A DNA stretch of 64,000 nucleotides from Microthrixaceae bacterium (GTDB lineage Bacteria > Actinomycetota > Acidimicrobiia > Acidimicrobiales > Microtrichaceae). The DNA lies in NCBI GenBank assembly GCA_023957995.1, contig JAMLGK010000003.1, positions 248,001 through 312,000 of the forward strand, written 5' to 3'. The notes beneath the pieces were generated by a model. It did not search any database, was not told the origin of the DNA, and was given only the letters and a program-made list of their open reading frames with translations. Below are positions 47,935 to 56,990 of the stretch, one piece after another; positions within the stretch are counted from its first letter, which is position 1, and every line of letters begins with the position of its first letter. The position numbers were made by a program, and so were the translations under genes.

Positions 47935-48291
47935 ATGCCTGCAACACCCACCAAGGGCCACCGCTTCGGTGGCAGCCCCAAGCACCAGCGACTGATGATG
48001 GCCAATCTGGTCTCGTCGTTGGTCGCCTCTCCCACCGGTATCGAGACGACCCAGGCCAAGGCCAAGGCGTTGCGTCCGATCGCGGAGAAGCTCATCACCA
48101 AGGCCCGCAAGGGCGGACTCCACAACCACCGCCAGATCCTGGCGTATGTGGGTGACCAGGAGATCGCCGCCATCCTCATGGACGAGGTGGGTCCCCGCTA
48201 CGCGGACCGACCAGGTGGCTACACCCGGATCCTCAAGCTCGGACCGCGCCCCGGTGACAACGCACCGATGGCGCGAATCGAACTGGTCTGA
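47935..48291 (+). CDS. rplQ: 50S ribosomal protein L17
   Basis: L17 lies near the tunnel exit. The 118-residue protein has RFGGSPKHQRLMMANLVSSL, TQAKAKALRPIAEKLITKAR and a C-terminus YTRILKLGPRPGDNAPMARI. It is the last gene of the alpha operon. Normally truA follows, but here a large surface-protein gene lies between. Confidence 0.98.
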   Translation: MPATPTKGHRFGGSPKHQRLMMANLVSSLVASPTGIETTQAKAKALRPIAEKLITKARKGGLHNHRQILAYVGDQEIAAILMDEVGPRYADRPGGYTRILKLGPRPGDNAPMARIELV

Positions 48292-48636: not shown

Positions 48637-51600
48637 ATGATCGGAAAGATCTCGGCCGTGGCGGCGGTGATGGCGCTGATCGGGTCGGTCCTGGTGACCC
48701 AGGCGGTGATACCCGGGCCTGAACCTGCTGCAGCAGACATCGGAGCGGTGAATCTGCTGTTCACCGCTCCGGGAAGCCCGGCCCGCTACGGAGCGAATCA
48801 GGTGGTCGCACTCGAGGCAGGGAACATCAACTTCGTTCCCAACTGCGAGGACATCCCTGGGGGCACCAGCAAGCGGGCTACTCCCGGCGTGCCCGACAGG
48901 TTCCAGCCCTTCGCAGACATCTACATCGTTCCCGCTGGTGCCAGCTACACCAACAACGCGAGCCTCACAGACGCCGCCGGGGCTCCGAACACCGTCCACG
49001 GGGGGCTCGCAGGTTCGTTCCTGTACGAACCGCTCGCGCAGGCAGGACCGGACGGCAAGGTCAAGTCCGGCACCTACGGCATCGTCGTGGACGAATGCCA
49101 GAACAAGGTCTTCGACGTGGGCGAGGACACCTACATCGACAACGCGTTCCGAGTCGATGTGAACCAGTTCGTGCCCGGCATCGGTACCGAGGTGGCTGCG
49201 TTCAACGCCCTCAAGGATCGTGCCGCAACCGGTGCCACCGCACTCGACAACCTTGAAACCCTCATCAAGCTGCACGAGCTCTTCAAGGCCGCCAAGGCCG
49301 CGTATGAGGTCTCGACCGCGTTCAATCCACAGGGTTTCGCCACCTTCGTCATCAACCAGACCATCGCCGGGATTCAGGAGGCATCCGGGTACACCCAGAT
49401 TCAGGATGACGCGAAGCAACTCGCCCGCGAGACGCTCGCCCAGCACAGGCTGCGCCTCTCGAACCTGGCCGCTGACCCACCTGATCCGAGCTTCTCCCGT
49501 TTCGCGCTCCCCACAGCGGTCGGCGCCCACGCCGAACAGGACACGGATCCCTACTCAGAGACCTGGAGCGAGTACATCGCCCACCTCGACGCTCTCTCAG
49601 CAGTCCAGGGCACGATGCTGGACGCGGTCGAGCGCTACCAGGGCGCCGATATCAACGGCAACGCCCAGTGGGCCCTGCGTCACGCTCGAACCCTGGTCGT
49701 TGCCTCCGAGCTGTACGACTCCTTGCTGGCCGGCTTCTCGGATGTGACCGCCCGACTGTTGGAGCAGGTCGAGACCCAGTTCGACGACCACGGCCTCCAG
49801 CAGTTCATCGGCCGCCTCGACAGCACCGTCGACAGCTTTCCCGCAGCCGACCTGCGTACCGACTACAGGTTCATGAACACCGGCCAGGAACCAGACCTCG
49901 GCACGTTCATAGTGCGATCCCTGGAAGCCGAGCTGGCCGGTCCGGTGTTGAACCAGGAAGCCGAGTGGGATGCGATCATCGAGGCGACCGAGACCTCGAT
50001 GGTCGACTTCGGTGCCGCCCTCGGCGACTTCGATGCAGTGCTTGCCGGGCACATCGCAGAGCTGGAATCAACCGTCGCCGAGGATGACACCGACCCCGAC
50101 CTCTCGGTCACGGTGACCGGTTCGCCCTGTGCCGGTTGTGATGTGACCCTCGAGGCAACAGGGCTGACTTCCGGGGACGTGGCCTGGGACCTCGATGCAG
50201 ACGGTCAGGCCGACGACGCCAACGGCCAGATCACGACCTGGACGGTCCCCGGTGATGCCATCGTCGGGGTGCCGCTGCTCGTGAGCGCGACGGCTTCGGG
50301 GGTGGGTTTCCAGACCTCGGCTTCTGAAGTGGTAGAGGTCGCCGTCGGTGGCAACCGAGCACCCGTTGCGTCGCCGTTCGGCGGACCGGAGCGTTCGATC
50401 GCGCCGGGTGAGAGCGAGACGTTCACAACTGCCGCCACCGACCCCGACGGCGACCCCCTCACGTACCGTTGGCTCGTCGACGGCGAACGTCAGGCCGGTG
50501 CCACCTCAGCCTCGTTCACCCTTGGCACCGACACCGACGACTTCGGTGGCCGCTTCGTCGAGGTGATCGTCTCGGACGGCTCCGCGATGACCCGACAGGT
50601 CGGTTTCGTGGAGATAACCACCGAGGACCTGGACAACGACAAGTACCTTGCTGCACCCGGCCCCGACTGCGCCGAGGAGGACACGCCCACCGGTGTGCAG
50701 GCGAGGTGGATCTATCCCGGTCGCAGCGAGATCCTCGGCAACGGAGCCGATGACGACTGCGATCCCTCCACCGACGACGGAGCTACCTCGCTTCCGTCGA
50801 TCTACGTCTACCAGGACGGCCAGACCCGCATCGGGACGGGCCAGACCGTCTCCCGCAGTCTGGGTTGGAGCCATCCCGAGAAGTTCTCCGGCGACGAGTT
50901 CCGTCTCACCATCGACTGGGATGACGGCAGCGATCCGGAGCTGCACACCCGTTCGGGCACCACGGCAGCTGAGCTCGACTTCGGTGATCTCACACACGAG
51001 TTCCCGCAGCAGGATCTCTCCGTGGCCACGAGGTTCTGCATCCAGCACGCCCCAACCGGTGAGCAGTGGTGCCAGGAGCAGGACCTCTCGGTGGTCAACA
51101 ACCGACCGATCGTCAACGCCGCGGATTTCCGCGACTTCGGTCCCACGGAACTGGGCCTGGACCGACCCGGACGCACCAGTAGCGGAGAGTGGAATCCACT
51201 GGACCCCTACGGTCAACGCATGATGTCCGGGGACAACCCGGGAAACATCGTTGTGAAGCCCTCCGACACGGCTCTGGCCGAGGGCGATGGCTACGGGCGG
51301 GTCAGCTACGACCAGCAGTACCTCTCGAGTGGCGACGACGACTTCGTCGGTCTCGTGCTCGGCTACCAGTCGGGCGAGGCCGACTCCCCCGACGCCGACT
51401 TCGTCACTGTGTGGTGGGGTGCCAACCATGACGTGCACCCGCTCAGAGTGGATGCCTGGTGCAACGACGCCCCGCCCGACATCCGGGTGGAGCCCTCCAG
51501 CTTCCTGCAGGCGTCGCGCCAGCGTGGCGTCTCGATCACCCCCGAATTCTTCGAGACGACCACCTACGACATCCCCTATGACCCCTCCGACGACGTGACC

Positions 51601-54600
51601 GAAGGTGAGGACCCCCAGTGGGAGTCCTGCAGCGACGACGGGGGTGTCGAGCTGCTCGCAGAGGTGGCACCCGGCGAGGCGCTCGTCGGTGGATCCGGGT
51701 GGAAGAGGCGCGCCAGCACCGAAGGGGAGCTCGAGTCCGCCGCCGTCCGCAAGGACTCCTACCTGATCGACATCGACTACCAACCCGATTCCCTCACGGT
51801 GTCCATCGACGGTGAGCAGCAGTTCGTCGCCACCCCTGCCGACCCATCTGATCCGTTCCCGCCGGGCGGGATCGGGTTGTTCATGCAGTCCCATGCGTCC
51901 ATGCAGATGGCCGTGACCGCACCGGAGCAGTCATTCGACTTCGTCCAGGGCCGCGGCGGCGAGTTCAGCGACGACCCGGCCGATGGCATCAGCGTGCCGA
52001 TGCATGACTCACCCGGTGACACCCACACGGTCCGAATCAACTGGGGTGACGGCACCTCCACCACCGAGGGCACTCGTACCGCCGATGCCGCCAAGGGTGC
52101 CGGTTGGTACGACATCACCGGCACGCACGTCTACGAACGCGCCGGCACCTTCCGCGGCGAGGTCTGTGCCACCGACCAGCACGATGTGGGGATGTGTTTC
52201 CCCTTCACCGCGGAAGTGGCGAACGCCGCACCCGTGGTCGACGCCGGCCTCGATCGGCCAGCGGACGCCCAGGTATCCCTCCAGGACATGACCTTTCAGG
52301 ATCCCGGCCGATTCGACACCCACACCGCGACCATCGACTGGGGCGACGGCACCGGAACCCAGCCCGCCACCATCACCAACGTCCTCGGCGGCGGAACCGT
52401 GTCGGGCAGCCACACCTACGACACCTCCGGCGAGAAGACCGTTGAGGTGTGCGTGCAGGACCAGCACGGAGACACCGGCTGCGACACGCGCATCCTGACC
52501 GTGCTCGCCTCCAACGAGGCACCTGTCGCACTCGTCGGGGACGCTCCCGGCGCCACGGAGGGCACCGACACGATCTTCGCGGTCGGCTTCACTGACACCA
52601 ACGTGGATGACACCCACACGATCACGGTCGACTGGGGAGACGGAACCGCGGCCGAGCAGATCGACTTCCAGGAGGGCGGGGACTTCGGTTCCGGCCTACC
52701 CACCCACCGCTACGTGGATGACGGCACCTACGAGGTCACCTTCGAGGTGTGCGACGCCGCCGGCCTGTGTGACAGCGCGTCGGTGTCCGTGAACGCGGTG
52801 AACCTGGCTCCGGAGCTCGAGGCGCCAGCATCCCAGGCCAACGGCACCTCGACCGTCGACGGCACCTTCACCGACGCAGGCGTCGATGACACCCACACCG
52901 CGACGATCGACTGGGGTGACGGAGGCGGCCCCGTCGCGCTGCCACTGGTGCCGGAAGCCGGTGGCGGCTCCTTCACGGCGACCCACGACTACGCGGCCAC
53001 CGGGACCTACACCATCGAGGTGTGCGTGACCGACAACGGCGGCGACACTGGATGCCAGCAGACAGAGGTGGAGGTCACCGAGGTCAACGGATCGATTCCG
53101 ACGGTCACCCTGGATGACCTCGCCGACTCCGCCGAAGGTGACACCGTCGCACTCGCAGCCACGTTCGATGACGCGAACGGGGATGACACCCATACCGCGA
53201 CGATCGACTGGGGTGACGGCACACCTGCCGAGGCCGCAGTGGTCGACCAGGAAGCGGGTTCGATCTCCGGATCGCACGTCTACGCCGATGACACCGGAGT
53301 GGGTGAGGCGACTGTCACGGTCACGGTCTGTGATGACACGGCGCGGTGTGGCGAAGCCAGCGACACGGTGGCGATCGCCAACGTGGCTCCCGCTGTGCAA
53401 GCCGGTTCCGACCGCACAACCGCGCTGGAGATGGTGCTGGATGGCGTCGGCTTCACCGATCCCGGCTCCGACGACACCCACCAGGTGACCGTCGACTGGG
53501 GCGATGGCAGCCCGCTCGAGTCGGCCTTCGTGGTGGCTTCAACTGACGGTTACACAGTGCAGGCAGGTCACACCTACGCAGCGCCGGGCACCTACACGGT
53601 CGAGGTGTGCGTGACCGACGACGATGGTGGGGGCACCTGCGACGACTCCCGGATAACAGCCGAGGCTTCCGCTATCGACGTTGTGGTCGGAGGGCCGTTC
53701 AGCACGGACGAGGGCGGAACCATCCAGGTGCCCTTCACCTTCTCCGATCCAGATGGGGGAACCCACAGTGCGACCATCTTCTGGGGCGATGGGAGCACGC
53801 CGGAGACGGTCGTGCTCACCGACGGCGGCACCACCGGATCGGGCTCGCCTGAGCACCTGTATGCCGAGAACGGGATCCTCGGTCTCACGGTGTCGGTGTG
53901 CGACGGGCATTCCTGCGGCGAACAGGCCGCGGTGGTCGCGGTGAACAACCTGGCTCCGTCGGTCTCTGAACCGACGGGCACGCCGGGGGCCGGGACCCTC
54001 TCGGTCGAAGCGGCCTTCGCCGACCCCGGCTCGCTCGACACGCACACCGCGACCATCGACTGGGGTGACGGGACCTCCAGTGCCGCAACCGTGGCTGGTG
54101 CCGTGGTCTCGGCGGACCACGACTATGCAGCCGGTGGGATCTACACGGTCGAGGTGTGTGTGACCGACGACGACGGTGGAACCGGGTGCGCCGACGCTGC
54201 GCTCACGGTCGACCCGTTGCCCAACGTCGCGCCCGATCTGGAAGTGACCGCACCAACGGGCCTCTTCGAGGGGGTCGCGTTCGACCTGGCAGCGAGCCTC
54301 ACCGACCCCGACAGCGCGAGCTGGACCGTCGACATCGACTGGGGTGACGGTACCGAGACCCTCGGACACACGCTCACGTCATCGGGTGGGTTCTCGTTGC
54401 CGCACACCTATGGCGACAACGGCACCCACACGATCTCGGTGACGGTGGACGACGGCGACGATGCCTCCACGGTCGAGGTGTTCGGTGTCGAGGTGTCCAA
54501 TGCCGCACCCACCCAGACGGTCGACCTGACCGTCGAGGACGACGAGGTCGATCTGTCGGTGACGGCCACCGATCCGGGGGATGACACCCTCTCGGTGGGC

Positions 54601-54993
54601 ATCGACTGGGGTGATGGGAGCGCCGAGGAGGCCGACCCCGTTGGCGGACCAGGCGATGGCGTCTCCCAGGTGTTCACGGGAAGCCACGAGTACTCGGCTC
54701 CGGGCGGGTACCGGATCGAGGTCTGCTCCTCTGACGACGACGGTGGTGAGGTCTGTGAGACCTTCCCGGTGACGATCTCGGTCACAACCACCACGACGAC
54801 CACGACGACCACGACAACCACGACGACCACCACGACGGTTCCGTCGACCACGACCACGACCCAGCCGCCCGACGACGGCGGTTCGTGTCACCGTCACGAT
54901 CGTTGGTGGTGGGGTTGGTGGTGGGGTCACCACTTCCACCACCACCATTGCCACCACCACCACTGGTGGTGGGGTTGGTGGCGTCACCGATGA
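48637..54993 (+). CDS. giant secreted multi-PKD protein with MopE-like motif, Thr-rich stalk and His/Trp tail
   Basis: This 2118-residue protein is predicted to be exported. Layout by residue: signal peptide 1-33 (ISAVAAVMALIGSVLVTQAV); helical region about 200-485 of unknown family; two Ig/PKD-like domains 486-661; an acidic MopE-like metal-binding motif about 664-716 (GNGADDDCDPSTDDG); a PKD repeat near 758; a thrombospondin C-terminal/lectin-like domain about 826-1103; then ten PKD repeats about every 95 residues from 1132 to 1988, each with WGDG or FWGDG; a Thr-rich stretch 2049-2082; and a 36-residue tail with 13 His and 11 Trp. The ATG at 48637 has GAGGAGG six bases upstream. A cell-surface adhesion or metal-binding role is inferred. 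Confidence 0.85.
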   Translation: MIGKISAVAAVMALIGSVLVTQAVIPGPEPAAADIGAVNLLFTAPGSPARYGANQVVALEAGNINFVPNCEDIPGGTSKRATPGVPDRFQPFADIYIVPAGASYTNNASLTDAAGAPNTVHGGLAGSFLYEPLAQAGPDGKVKSGTYGIVVDECQNKVFDVGEDTYIDNAFRVDVNQFVPGIGTEVAAFNALKDRAATGATALDNLETLIKLHELFKAAKAAYEVSTAFNPQGFATFVINQTIAGIQEASGYTQIQDDAKQLARETLAQHRLRLSNLAADPPDPSFSRFALPTAVGAHAEQDTDPYSETWSEYIAHLDALSAVQGTMLDAVERYQGADINGNAQWALRHARTLVVASELYDSLLAGFSDVTARLLEQVETQFDDHGLQQFIGRLDSTVDSFPAADLRTDYRFMNTGQEPDLGTFIVRSLEAELAGPVLNQEAEWDAIIEATETSMVDFGAALGDFDAVLAGHIAELESTVAEDDTDPDLSVTVTGSPCAGCDVTLEATGLTSGDVAWDLDADGQADDANGQITTWTVPGDAIVGVPLLVSATASGVGFQTSASEVVEVAVGGNRAPVASPFGGPERSIAPGESETFTTAATDPDGDPLTYRWLVDGERQAGATSASFTLGTDTDDFGGRFVEVIVSDGSAMTRQVGFVEITTEDLDNDKYLAAPGPDCAEEDTPTGVQARWIYPGRSEILGNGADDDCDPSTDDGATSLPSIYVYQDGQTRIGTGQTVSRSLGWSHPEKFSGDEFRLTIDWDDGSDPELHTRSGTTAAELDFGDLTHEFPQQDLSVATRFCIQHAPTGEQWCQEQDLSVVNNRPIVNAADFRDFGPTELGLDRPGRTSSGEWNPLDPYGQRMMSGDNPGNIVVKPSDTALAEGDGYGRVSYDQQYLSSGDDDFVGLVLGYQSGEADSPDADFVTVWWGANHDVHPLRVDAWCNDAPPDIRVEPSSFLQASRQRGVSITPEFFETTTYDIPYDPSDDVTEGEDPQWESCSDDGGVELLAEVAPGEALVGGSGWKRRASTEGELESAAVRKDSYLIDIDYQPDSLTVSIDGEQQFVATPADPSDPFPPGGIGLFMQSHASMQMAVTAPEQSFDFVQGRGGEFSDDPADGISVPMHDSPGDTHTVRINWGDGTSTTEGTRTADAAKGAGWYDITGTHVYERAGTFRGEVCATDQHDVGMCFPFTAEVANAAPVVDAGLDRPADAQVSLQDMTFQDPGRFDTHTATIDWGDGTGTQPATITNVLGGGTVSGSHTYDTSGEKTVEVCVQDQHGDTGCDTRILTVLASNEAPVALVGDAPGATEGTDTIFAVGFTDTNVDDTHTITVDWGDGTAAEQIDFQEGGDFGSGLPTHRYVDDGTYEVTFEVCDAAGLCDSASVSVNAVNLAPELEAPASQANGTSTVDGTFTDAGVDDTHTATIDWGDGGGPVALPLVPEAGGGSFTATHDYAATGTYTIEVCVTDNGGDTGCQQTEVEVTEVNGSIPTVTLDDLADSAEGDTVALAATFDDANGDDTHTATIDWGDGTPAEAAVVDQEAGSISGSHVYADDTGVGEATVTVTVCDDTARCGEASDTVAIANVAPAVQAGSDRTTALEMVLDGVGFTDPGSDDTHQVTVDWGDGSPLESAFVVASTDGYTVQAGHTYAAPGTYTVEVCVTDDDGGGTCDDSRITAEASAIDVVVGGPFSTDEGGTIQVPFTFSDPDGGTHSATIFWGDGSTPETVVLTDGGTTGSGSPEHLYAENGILGLTVSVCDGHSCGEQAAVVAVNNLAPSVSEPTGTPGAGTLSVEAAFADPGSLDTHTATIDWGDGTSSAATVAGAVVSADHDYAAGGIYTVEVCVTDDDGGTGCADAALTVDPLPNVAPDLEVTAPTGLFEGVAFDLAASLTDPDSASWTVDIDWGDGTETLGHTLTSSGGFSLPHTYGDNGTHTISVTVDDGDDASTVEVFGVEVSNAAPTQTVDLTVEDDEVDLSVTATDPGDDTLSVGIDWGDGSAEEADPVGGPGDGVSQVFTGSHEYSAPGGYRIEVCSSDDDGGEVCETFPVTISVTTTTTTTTTTTTTTTTTTVPSTTTTTQPPDDGGSCHRHDRWWWGWWWGHHFHHHHCHHHHWWWGWWRHR

Positions 54994-55083
54994 ACTGGAT
55001 CTTCCTGCGGCTGCACCATCCGATTGGCTGCCTTGGGGTGGCGAACGTGCCATGGTGTGGAAGTGCACCACGAACCAGGGCCA

Positions 55084-55887
55084 GTGAGAGATCCCGGCCC
55101 TGCATTGGTCGAGGTCGATCCACCGGAGCCCGGTTACCAGCGCCACCGCATGGTCATCTCCTATGACGGGTCCGCCTTCAGGGGATTCGCCCCCAACGAG
55201 GGTGTGCGCACGATCGGAGCCGACCTGCGCTCCGCCCTGGAGCGGATCCTGCGCAGCGAGGTCGAGCTCTCCGTCGCGGGCCGAACCGACGCCGGGGTGC
55301 ACGCACGCGGCCAGGTCGTGTCCTTCGACGCGCAGAGCGGCGCCGTGCGCCCCGATGAGATGCGACGGTCGCTCAACTCCCTGCTCGGCCCGAGCATCGT
55401 CGTGCGCGAGGTGGCCACTGCGCCCGACGATTTCCACGCCCGGTTCTCCGCACGCTGGCGTCGCTACCGCTACAGGCTGTTGACCTCGGAGGTTCCCGAC
55501 CCGTTCCTGTCCTCGACCACCTGGTGGACCCCCGAGGCGCTGGATCACCACCGGATGGCCGACGCAGCCCATGAGCTGGTCGGCACACACGACTTCACCT
55601 CGTTCTGTCGCCGCCCGAAGGGCCGACCCGATGCATCGATGGTGCGCAGGGTCACCGATGCGCGCTGGACCCACGAACCCGGCGAAGGCCGAGTCCTCAC
55701 CTTCGAGATCACCGCCACGGCGTTCTGTCACCAGATGGTGCGCTCCATCGTGGGCACCCTGGTCGACATCGGCAGGGGTCGACGCCCGACCTCCACGGTG
55801 ACGGTTGCCCTCGCCGGAGAGGACCGGTCACTGGCGGGGCAGCTCGCACCACCACACGGGTTGATCCTCTGGGAGGTCGGGTACTGA
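55084..55887 (+). CDS. truA: tRNA pseudouridine synthase A
   Basis: TruA modifies uridines 38-40 in the tRNA anticodon stem. The core runs from MVISYDGSAFRGFAPNEGVR, with the catalytic Asp in AGRTDAGVHARGQV, to FCHQMVRSIVGTLVDIGRGR. The start is uncertain: I give the GTG at 55084 (267 residues), but TTG at 55105 or ATG at 55150 are possible; the last would begin at the conserved strand itself. It continues the usual rplQ-truA-rplM order after the inserted PKD gene. Confidence 0.92.
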   Translation: MRDPGPALVEVDPPEPGYQRHRMVISYDGSAFRGFAPNEGVRTIGADLRSALERILRSEVELSVAGRTDAGVHARGQVVSFDAQSGAVRPDEMRRSLNSLLGPSIVVREVATAPDDFHARFSARWRRYRYRLLTSEVPDPFLSSTTWWTPEALDHHRMADAAHELVGTHDFTSFCRRPKGRPDASMVRRVTDARWTHEPGEGRVLTFEITATAFCHQMVRSIVGTLVDIGRGRRPTSTVTVALAGEDRSLAGQLAPPHGLILWEVGY

Positions 55888-55924: not shown

Positions 55925-56878
55925 TCAGGGCAGGGCGCCGGCCTGGGTGAGGACCGCTCGGGCGATGTCCTCGCGGACCGCCGGACTCGGTGTCTGTCCC
56001 GAATCGTCGGGTCCCAGATCCACGTTGAGCGCGAACACCCAGGTGCGATCACCGTTCTCGACCGTGCCGACCAACCACCCGAGTGTGGGTTCCTCTGCCA
56101 GCGCCAGGCCGGTCTTGTGCGACCAGGCCCATCCATCGCCGGTCTCCCGCACGAGAATGTCACGGACCGAGGACACCACCTCATCGGAGAACGGGAGGTC
56201 CCCGGTCACCATCGCCTCCAGGAACCGGAGCTGTTCTGTGGGGCTGATCCGGAGGTCGCCGGTCAGCCAGAACTGATCGATGCCCCCGCCGGTATCACCG
56301 TTTCCGAATCCGGCGCTCGCCACGAGATCCGCCATGCGTTCCTCGCCGACCTCGCGTGCCATTGCCTGGTAGACCCACACCGCCGACACCTCGATCGCGC
56401 TGCGCAGCGTGTGGTCACCGTTCCATGCGGGTACCTCTCGTTCGACGCCGTCCCAGGGAACCAGGGTCTCGGTGTCGGGCAGCACAGCGGTCTCCAGGAT
56501 GATCATGGAGTTGAGGATCTTGAACGTCGACGCGGGTATGCGTCTCACTTCGGCACGGGCACGGTCGAAGACCAGGGTCGTTTCCGAGCCGACCTCGCGG
56601 ATGGCGATCGTTCCGCTCACGCCGTGCTGCTCGAACACCTCGGCCCACTCCGGGCGTTCCTCGTAGACCGGTGCCGGTCCGCTGGTCGACGACGTCGTCG
56701 AATCGGTCGAGGGGGTGGAGGTCGGCGAAGCGGTGCCCCCGGAGTCCTCCACACCGGCCGAGCATGCCGACACCGCGAGCGTGACGGTGGCGACAAGTCC
56801 GATGGCCCGCCGGGCCACGCGGATCCCCCGTCCGCAGTGGTGGCCCCAACTGGCAGTCGTCTCCGACTTCATCTCCAT
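55925..56878 (-). CDS. class D (OXA-type) beta-lactamase homologue, lipoprotein
   Basis: This 317-residue penicilloyl serine transferase is of the class D beta-lactamase family. The nucleophile motif is ASTFK (PASTFKILNSMIILE), followed by DHTLRSAIEVSAVWVYQ with the SxV motif, FGNGD in the YGN position, and SHKTGLA. The N-terminus has a lipobox (LAVSAC) after a hydrophobic stretch, then a Ser/Thr linker, so it would be membrane tethered. I chose the ATG at 56878, five bases after GGGAG on the minus strand. Activity against drugs is not shown. BlaR/MecR-type sensor domains share this fold, but no membrane receptor part is present. Confidence 0.85.
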   Translation of the reverse strand: MEMKSETTASWGHHCGRGIRVARRAIGLVATVTLAVSACSAGVEDSGGTASPTSTPSTDSTTSSTSGPAPVYEERPEWAEVFEQHGVSGTIAIREVGSETTLVFDRARAEVRRIPASTFKILNSMIILETAVLPDTETLVPWDGVEREVPAWNGDHTLRSAIEVSAVWVYQAMAREVGEERMADLVASAGFGNGDTGGGIDQFWLTGDLRISPTEQLRFLEAMVTGDLPFSDEVVSSVRDILVRETGDGWAWSHKTGLALAEEPTLGWLVGTVENGDRTWVFALNVDLGPDDSGQTPSPAVREDIARAVLTQAGALP

Positions 56879-56990
56879 CCGATCTCCCATGAGGAGAAGG
56901 TAACGGAAACCTGAGCGGCGTTCAATCTTTGGATCGTGTCCGGGAGCCGGCAGGCTGGCCACCCTGCAGGGGGGGCGAATGGGGCCGGGC

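Follow-up and report, generated by a model that had tools for sequence, protein, structure and literature searches.

We place at a little under one half (about 0.47) the probability of our leading reading, in which the His/Trp-rich end of a giant, predicted secreted PKD-repeat protein is a genuine, in-frame but orphan low-complexity ending, a recent product of slippage and duplication in GC-rich triplet repeats that, if active, would serve as a sticky tip and that is no sorting signal of a known type. The gene and its parts are listed below in coordinates of the window, that is, the whole 64-kb stretch of DNA that was analysed.

48637-54993, + strand: gene of a predicted secreted PKD-repeat protein, 2118 aa (open frame, PKD_4, AGGAGG, hydrophobic N-terminus)
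48637-48735, + strand: signal-peptide-like N-terminus MIGKISAVAAVMALIGSVLVTQAVIPGPEPAAA (sequence, hydropathy)
48736-50082, + strand: N-terminal domain without known fold, common to one homologue (about 41% identity)
50623-50790, + strand: degenerate MopE-type "putative metal-binding" motif region (DLDNDKYLAAPGPDC...GNGADDDCDPSTDDG; the homologue's equivalent matches PF11617)
52228-54780, + strand: about nine PKD-like repeats
54784-54882, + strand: Thr-rich stalk, T18-VPS-T5-QPPDDGG (sequence; similar Thr runs on many open reading frames of the genome)
54883-54990, + strand: His/Trp-rich C-terminal tail of 36 residues (sequence, composition)

The tail reads SCHRHDRWWWGWWWGHHFHHHHCHHHHWWWGWWRHR and is followed by TGA at 54991-54993, and an unbroken reading frame joins it to the PKD repeats and to the N-terminus that resembles a signal peptide. 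Its composition (13 His, 11 Trp, 2 Cys, 4 Arg and 3 Gly among 36 residues) bears out the initial annotation, whose counts for the first three of these residues, behind a Thr-rich linker, are matched in frame. Under a binomial null based on the protein's own composition, which takes no account of low-complexity triplet-repeat DNA, at least 13 His in 36 residues would be expected with a chance of about 5e-14 and at least 11 Trp with a chance of about 1e-12. The residues are laid out in blocks, WWWGWWWG / HHFHHHHCHHHH / WWWGWW, encoded by a TGG block, a CAC block and a second TGG block, so the TGG and CAC triplets described earlier are present while their supposed alternation is not. A DNA pattern for WWxWW..HHH occurs once in the window and in none of 100 shuffles.

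The body of the protein is that of a probable exported giant. The longest open reading frame listed opens at GTG 48505; since AGGAGG lies just 5' of ATG 48637 and a hydrophobic, signal-like segment follows directly, the latter start, giving 2118 residues, is preferred. The best Kyte-Doolittle window of the entire protein is its N-terminus, where signal peptidase would be expected to cut, and a profile search placed PKD_4 on seven stretches (E 3.6e-63); with tandem PKD domains and predicted export, the protein belongs with the PKD-repeat surface proteins. The N-terminal domain gave no Pfam match, and its predicted structure is of low confidence (pLDDT 43). The region 51103-51960, which separates the MopE-type motif from the first PKD repeat, is present also in the homologue and gave no Pfam match; by eye it looks like thrombospondin C-terminal/lectin-like modules. 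No frame break occurs anywhere in the 2118 codons.

Among the genomes searched, the tail is a lineage-specific, orphan ending. Used as a protein query against its own genome and 33 family, 395 class and 396 phylum genomes (overlapping samples), it found only itself; the remaining matches of the tail-only query had E values of at least 0.06, and the better matches of a query containing the stalk were to the Thr run or to scattered residues. The WWxWW...HHH DNA pattern was also run over the whole collection, where, among the 80 matches listed, one alone had the pattern in its longest open frame and none was the His/Trp-rich end of a long protein, which marks these matches as chance. A DNA search with the 3' end of the gene gave nothing beyond short low-complexity matches in the family and no match in plasmids, and the phrase "histidine- and tryptophan-rich" was not found in the literature searched. 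The earlier remark that no named signal has such a form agrees with the genomes and literature searched, and the recurrence on unrelated exported proteins that it had proposed to look for did not appear in the own, family, class or phylum genomes searched.

The stalk, by contrast, has company. Thr runs of at least seven residues are found on many open reading frames of the genome (L197-L205; contigs C5, C7, C9, C11, C12, C14, C21, C23), most of them serving as linkers in the interior of exported proteins, and one precedes a LASTG-type sortase signal. These linkers share the composition of the stalk, but none continues into a His/Trp tail.

One homologue of the N-terminal part was found in overlapping samples of 198 class and 397 order genomes. 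It is encoded at L024 1821-7697, beside unrelated genes, and is 39% identical to the PKD protein over 1509 columns; its C-terminus carries a fibronectin-type domain and three repeats of about 120 residues in place of the PKD repeats, with neither Thr stalk nor His/Trp tail. The two proteins thus have a common front and swapped C-terminal modules. The initial annotation had named an unrelated tail in close relatives as evidence against it; the C-terminus of the homologue is indeed unrelated, but the homologue is distant rather than close. Its three repeats are nearly identical to one another (LTPARLMETRVG...DVTGYV).

The locus is equally particular, as seen from the two genes that flank it.

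47935-48291, + strand: rplQ, left neighbour of the insertion (sequence; beside truA in 28 relatives)
55086-55887, + strand: truA, right neighbour of the insertion (putative GTG start; PseudoU_synth_1, E 1e-39)

All 28 family loci in which both neighbours could be read have a spacing of only about 40-260 bases between rplQ and truA. As none of these relatives has the gene there, the 6.4-kb PKD gene is an insertion peculiar to the source genome among those searched; no convincing target-site duplication flanks it. In two congeners (L208, L210) the rplQ-truA spacer holds large, near-perfect palindromes with common ends CGAACTG...CAGTTCG, possibly a repeated palindromic element.

The DNA of the tail points to how such an ending may have arisen. 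ACC repeats are read as Thr in one frame and as His in another, and GGT repeats as Gly or Trp. The His-block DNA (54926-54963) matches the repeat unit of the Thr stalk at 66%, though in a different frame, and the two Trp blocks are direct copies of a 27-nt unit (54895-54921 / 54955-54981, 85%); together these suggest that GC-rich triplet DNA underwent slippage and duplication. Stalk-like DNA, (ACC)n and (GGT)n, would have come to be read in the His/Trp frame, with recent slippage and duplication of GC-rich triplets building up the tail, although the order of Trp, His and Trp blocks and the two Cys could stem from selection rather than slippage. The tail is probably translated, as judged from its open frame and codons: of the three frames, the His/Trp one scores highest for synonymous codons (+3.9, against +0.8 and -4.6). 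The coding evidence is nevertheless weak in view of the low GC at third positions, with 15 of 25 codons outside Trp/Met ending in G or C against 82% in reference genes, and departures from a perfect (ACC)n/(GGT)n pattern, sorted by their place in the codon, are not numerous enough to single out one frame.

The same DNA lends itself to a second explanation, less likely but a serious competitor, namely that a Thr/Gly-rich linker (VTVTIVGGGVGGGVTTSTTTIATTTTGGGVGGVTDELD...) was put out of frame by an upstream indel, real or a sequencing or assembly error, and that its His/Trp reading is functionless. The adjacent frame is an ordinary Thr/Gly linker with a GVTT resembling the SVTT of the stalk, the match of the His-block DNA to the stalk DNA falls in this Thr/Gly frame, and Thr-rich linkers are common in the genome; the frame runs on to a TGA that overlaps the putative GTG start of truA, and a typical linker extending up to that stop is what keeps the explanation alive. 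It requires an extra event, however, in a gene whose remainder has no frame break, and the last 30 codons of the Thr/Gly frame, which extend beyond the stop codon of the tail, are not coding-like (GC3 15/26, score -0.3), its Gly and Val codons including many GGT and GTT, which are less used in reference genes. Were the tail a frameshift or slippage product, it would illustrate how complementary low-complexity DNA (ACC/GGT) can seem outlandish in one frame and commonplace in the adjoining one. Were it both translated and of use, it would clearly exemplify a working protein terminus drawn from out-of-frame triplet repeats, of a composition unmatched among the several hundred phylum genomes scanned.

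The repeats also have consequences for the transcript.

54895-54981, + strand: tail repeat DNA with predicted RNA hairpin (direct repeat, inverted arms, fold)

The inverted arms lie at 54895-54924 and 54939-54968, and the tail with its flanks is predicted to fold at -65.6 kcal/mol (z -2.6), in line with the hairpin suggested earlier for the 3' end. It would be very improbable, in our estimate, that the DNA or RNA is what matters here, with a 3'-end hairpin insulating or terminating transcription before truA and the His/Trp codons as its by-product. The strength of the predicted fold speaks for it, as do palindromes seen by eye between rplQ and truA in several relatives. Against it, 904 of 1000 synonymous recodings of the tail with local codon usage folded at least as stably, whereas 993 of 1000 codon-order shuffles gave a less stable fold, so that the hairpin is a by-product of how the Trp and His blocks are arranged; RNA-level selection on the codon choice of the tail has no support, and the hairpin proposal stands as a fold without a sign of selection for it. 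Further, neither a U-run nor a terminator-like site was present at 54700-55300, so the features of a Rho-independent terminator are missing there; the hairpin region had no Rfam match, and a separate GC palindrome, seen by eye, already lies 3' of rplQ.

Returning to an orphan ending built from triplet repeats, its conjectural function can be approached from its chemistry. In a single-sequence model of the last PKD domain and the tail, the latter has no secondary structure (pLDDT 51, low confidence), and it would accordingly be disordered if translated, with the Thr stalk keeping it at a distance from the PKD rod, and, if active, would act as a non-specific, flexible, sticky tip. The cluster of His and Cys would bind transition metals, and binding of metal or haem is chemically plausible from the residues present; the blocks with their 11 Trp would tend to settle at the interface of a membrane or polymer. 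The calculated interface transfer energy is -15.1 kcal/mol with neutral His and -4.9 kcal/mol with charged His, a shift from which we infer that interface binding would weaken in acid. Known peptides resemble the tail in part. His runs, often at the protein end, also mark HypB, SlyD and Hpn, which are metal-handling proteins with His-rich tails that are cytoplasmic, Trp-poor and conserved, unlike the Trp-rich, orphan tail on a predicted secreted protein. Tritrpticin and indolicidin, Trp-rich, membrane-active, free short peptides, likewise combine dense Trp with cationic residues and seek interfaces, whereas the tail closes a 2100-residue protein and is dominated by His rather than Arg.

A more specific proposal is a selected functional module, in which the tail is a tip dedicated to binding haem or a metal (Zn, Ni, Cu) and may form a pair with the MopE-type motif region; we consider it unlikely. 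It gains from the 13 His and 2 Cys within 36 residues and from the motif itself, which matches PF11617 in the homologue at E 9e-7 and has a degenerate form in the PKD protein whose match falls short of the 0.001 E-value threshold. In MopE, a secreted protein of Methylococcus capsulatus, copper is coordinated by two His and an oxidised Trp (PMC3423442). The PKD protein is like it in its predicted secretion and in the degenerate motif region in its body, and MopE uses His and Trp as ligands, but these are particular residues in a folded site, whereas the PKD protein offers a repeat tail of His and Trp and no MopE site. The module loses from the homologue, which keeps the MopE-type motif and yet has no tail, and from the lack of recurrence or conservation in the genomes searched. 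A decidedly long shot is a new non-covalent tip for surface attachment or metal capture, that is, a block peptide of His, Trp and Cys on a Thr stalk with pH-switchable binding of metal or membrane, originating from triplet repeats in a single lineage.

The resemblance to tripartite sorting signals that the initial annotation had noted did not hold up, since membrane helix, recurrence on other proteins and a dedicated enzyme next door were all missing. Sorting systems of the tripartite kind mark a number of proteins or else turn up again in other species. MYXO-CTERM, LPXTG and PEP-CTERM signals (PMC11980579) are, like the tail, short and C-terminal behind a linker, with Cys first and basic residues last, but the tail lacks their transmembrane helix, signature motif and paired enzyme and is known from one instance. 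That it is nonetheless a new signal of Cys, aromatic stretch and basic end with its own processing enzyme is barely credible; its position behind a stalk, with a Cys near its start and Arg/His at its end, fits, but no 19-residue window within the last 120 residues exceeds a Kyte-Doolittle mean of 0.5, which leaves no hydrophobic membrane helix, and the genomes searched hold a single instance. No LPXTG-like motif was found in the C-terminus, where the Cys have no conserved context. The one sortase match in the genome, class F-like and on another contig, has a normal candidate substrate of the LAxTG type in another Thr-stalk protein (L198), which ends with an ordinary LASTG-helix-RRRR signal. 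Absence of helix and motif, and of recurrence in the genomes searched, rules out a known kind of sorting or anchoring signal, and under either account of its origin the tail is not to be listed as a new one. Lack of an anchor is normal for giant PKD proteins in the family: in those sampled, the chain stops directly behind a PKD domain or closes with Gly-rich sequence or a different domain, with no anchor.

The dedicated transpeptidase that had been suggested as a partner was not found alongside, the sole neighbour with a transpeptidase fold being a class D beta-lactamase homologue with a lipoprotein-like signal (55925-56962, - strand), which lies between truA and rplM. It matches NCBIfam bla_class_D_main at E 1e-68, below the equivalog cut-off, and its relatives in the PDB include OXA-48 and YbxI. 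In relatives, truA and rplM lie close together with no class D beta-lactamase gene nearby; as the PKD gene is likewise missing there, the ribosomal cluster carries two lineage-specific insertions around truA.
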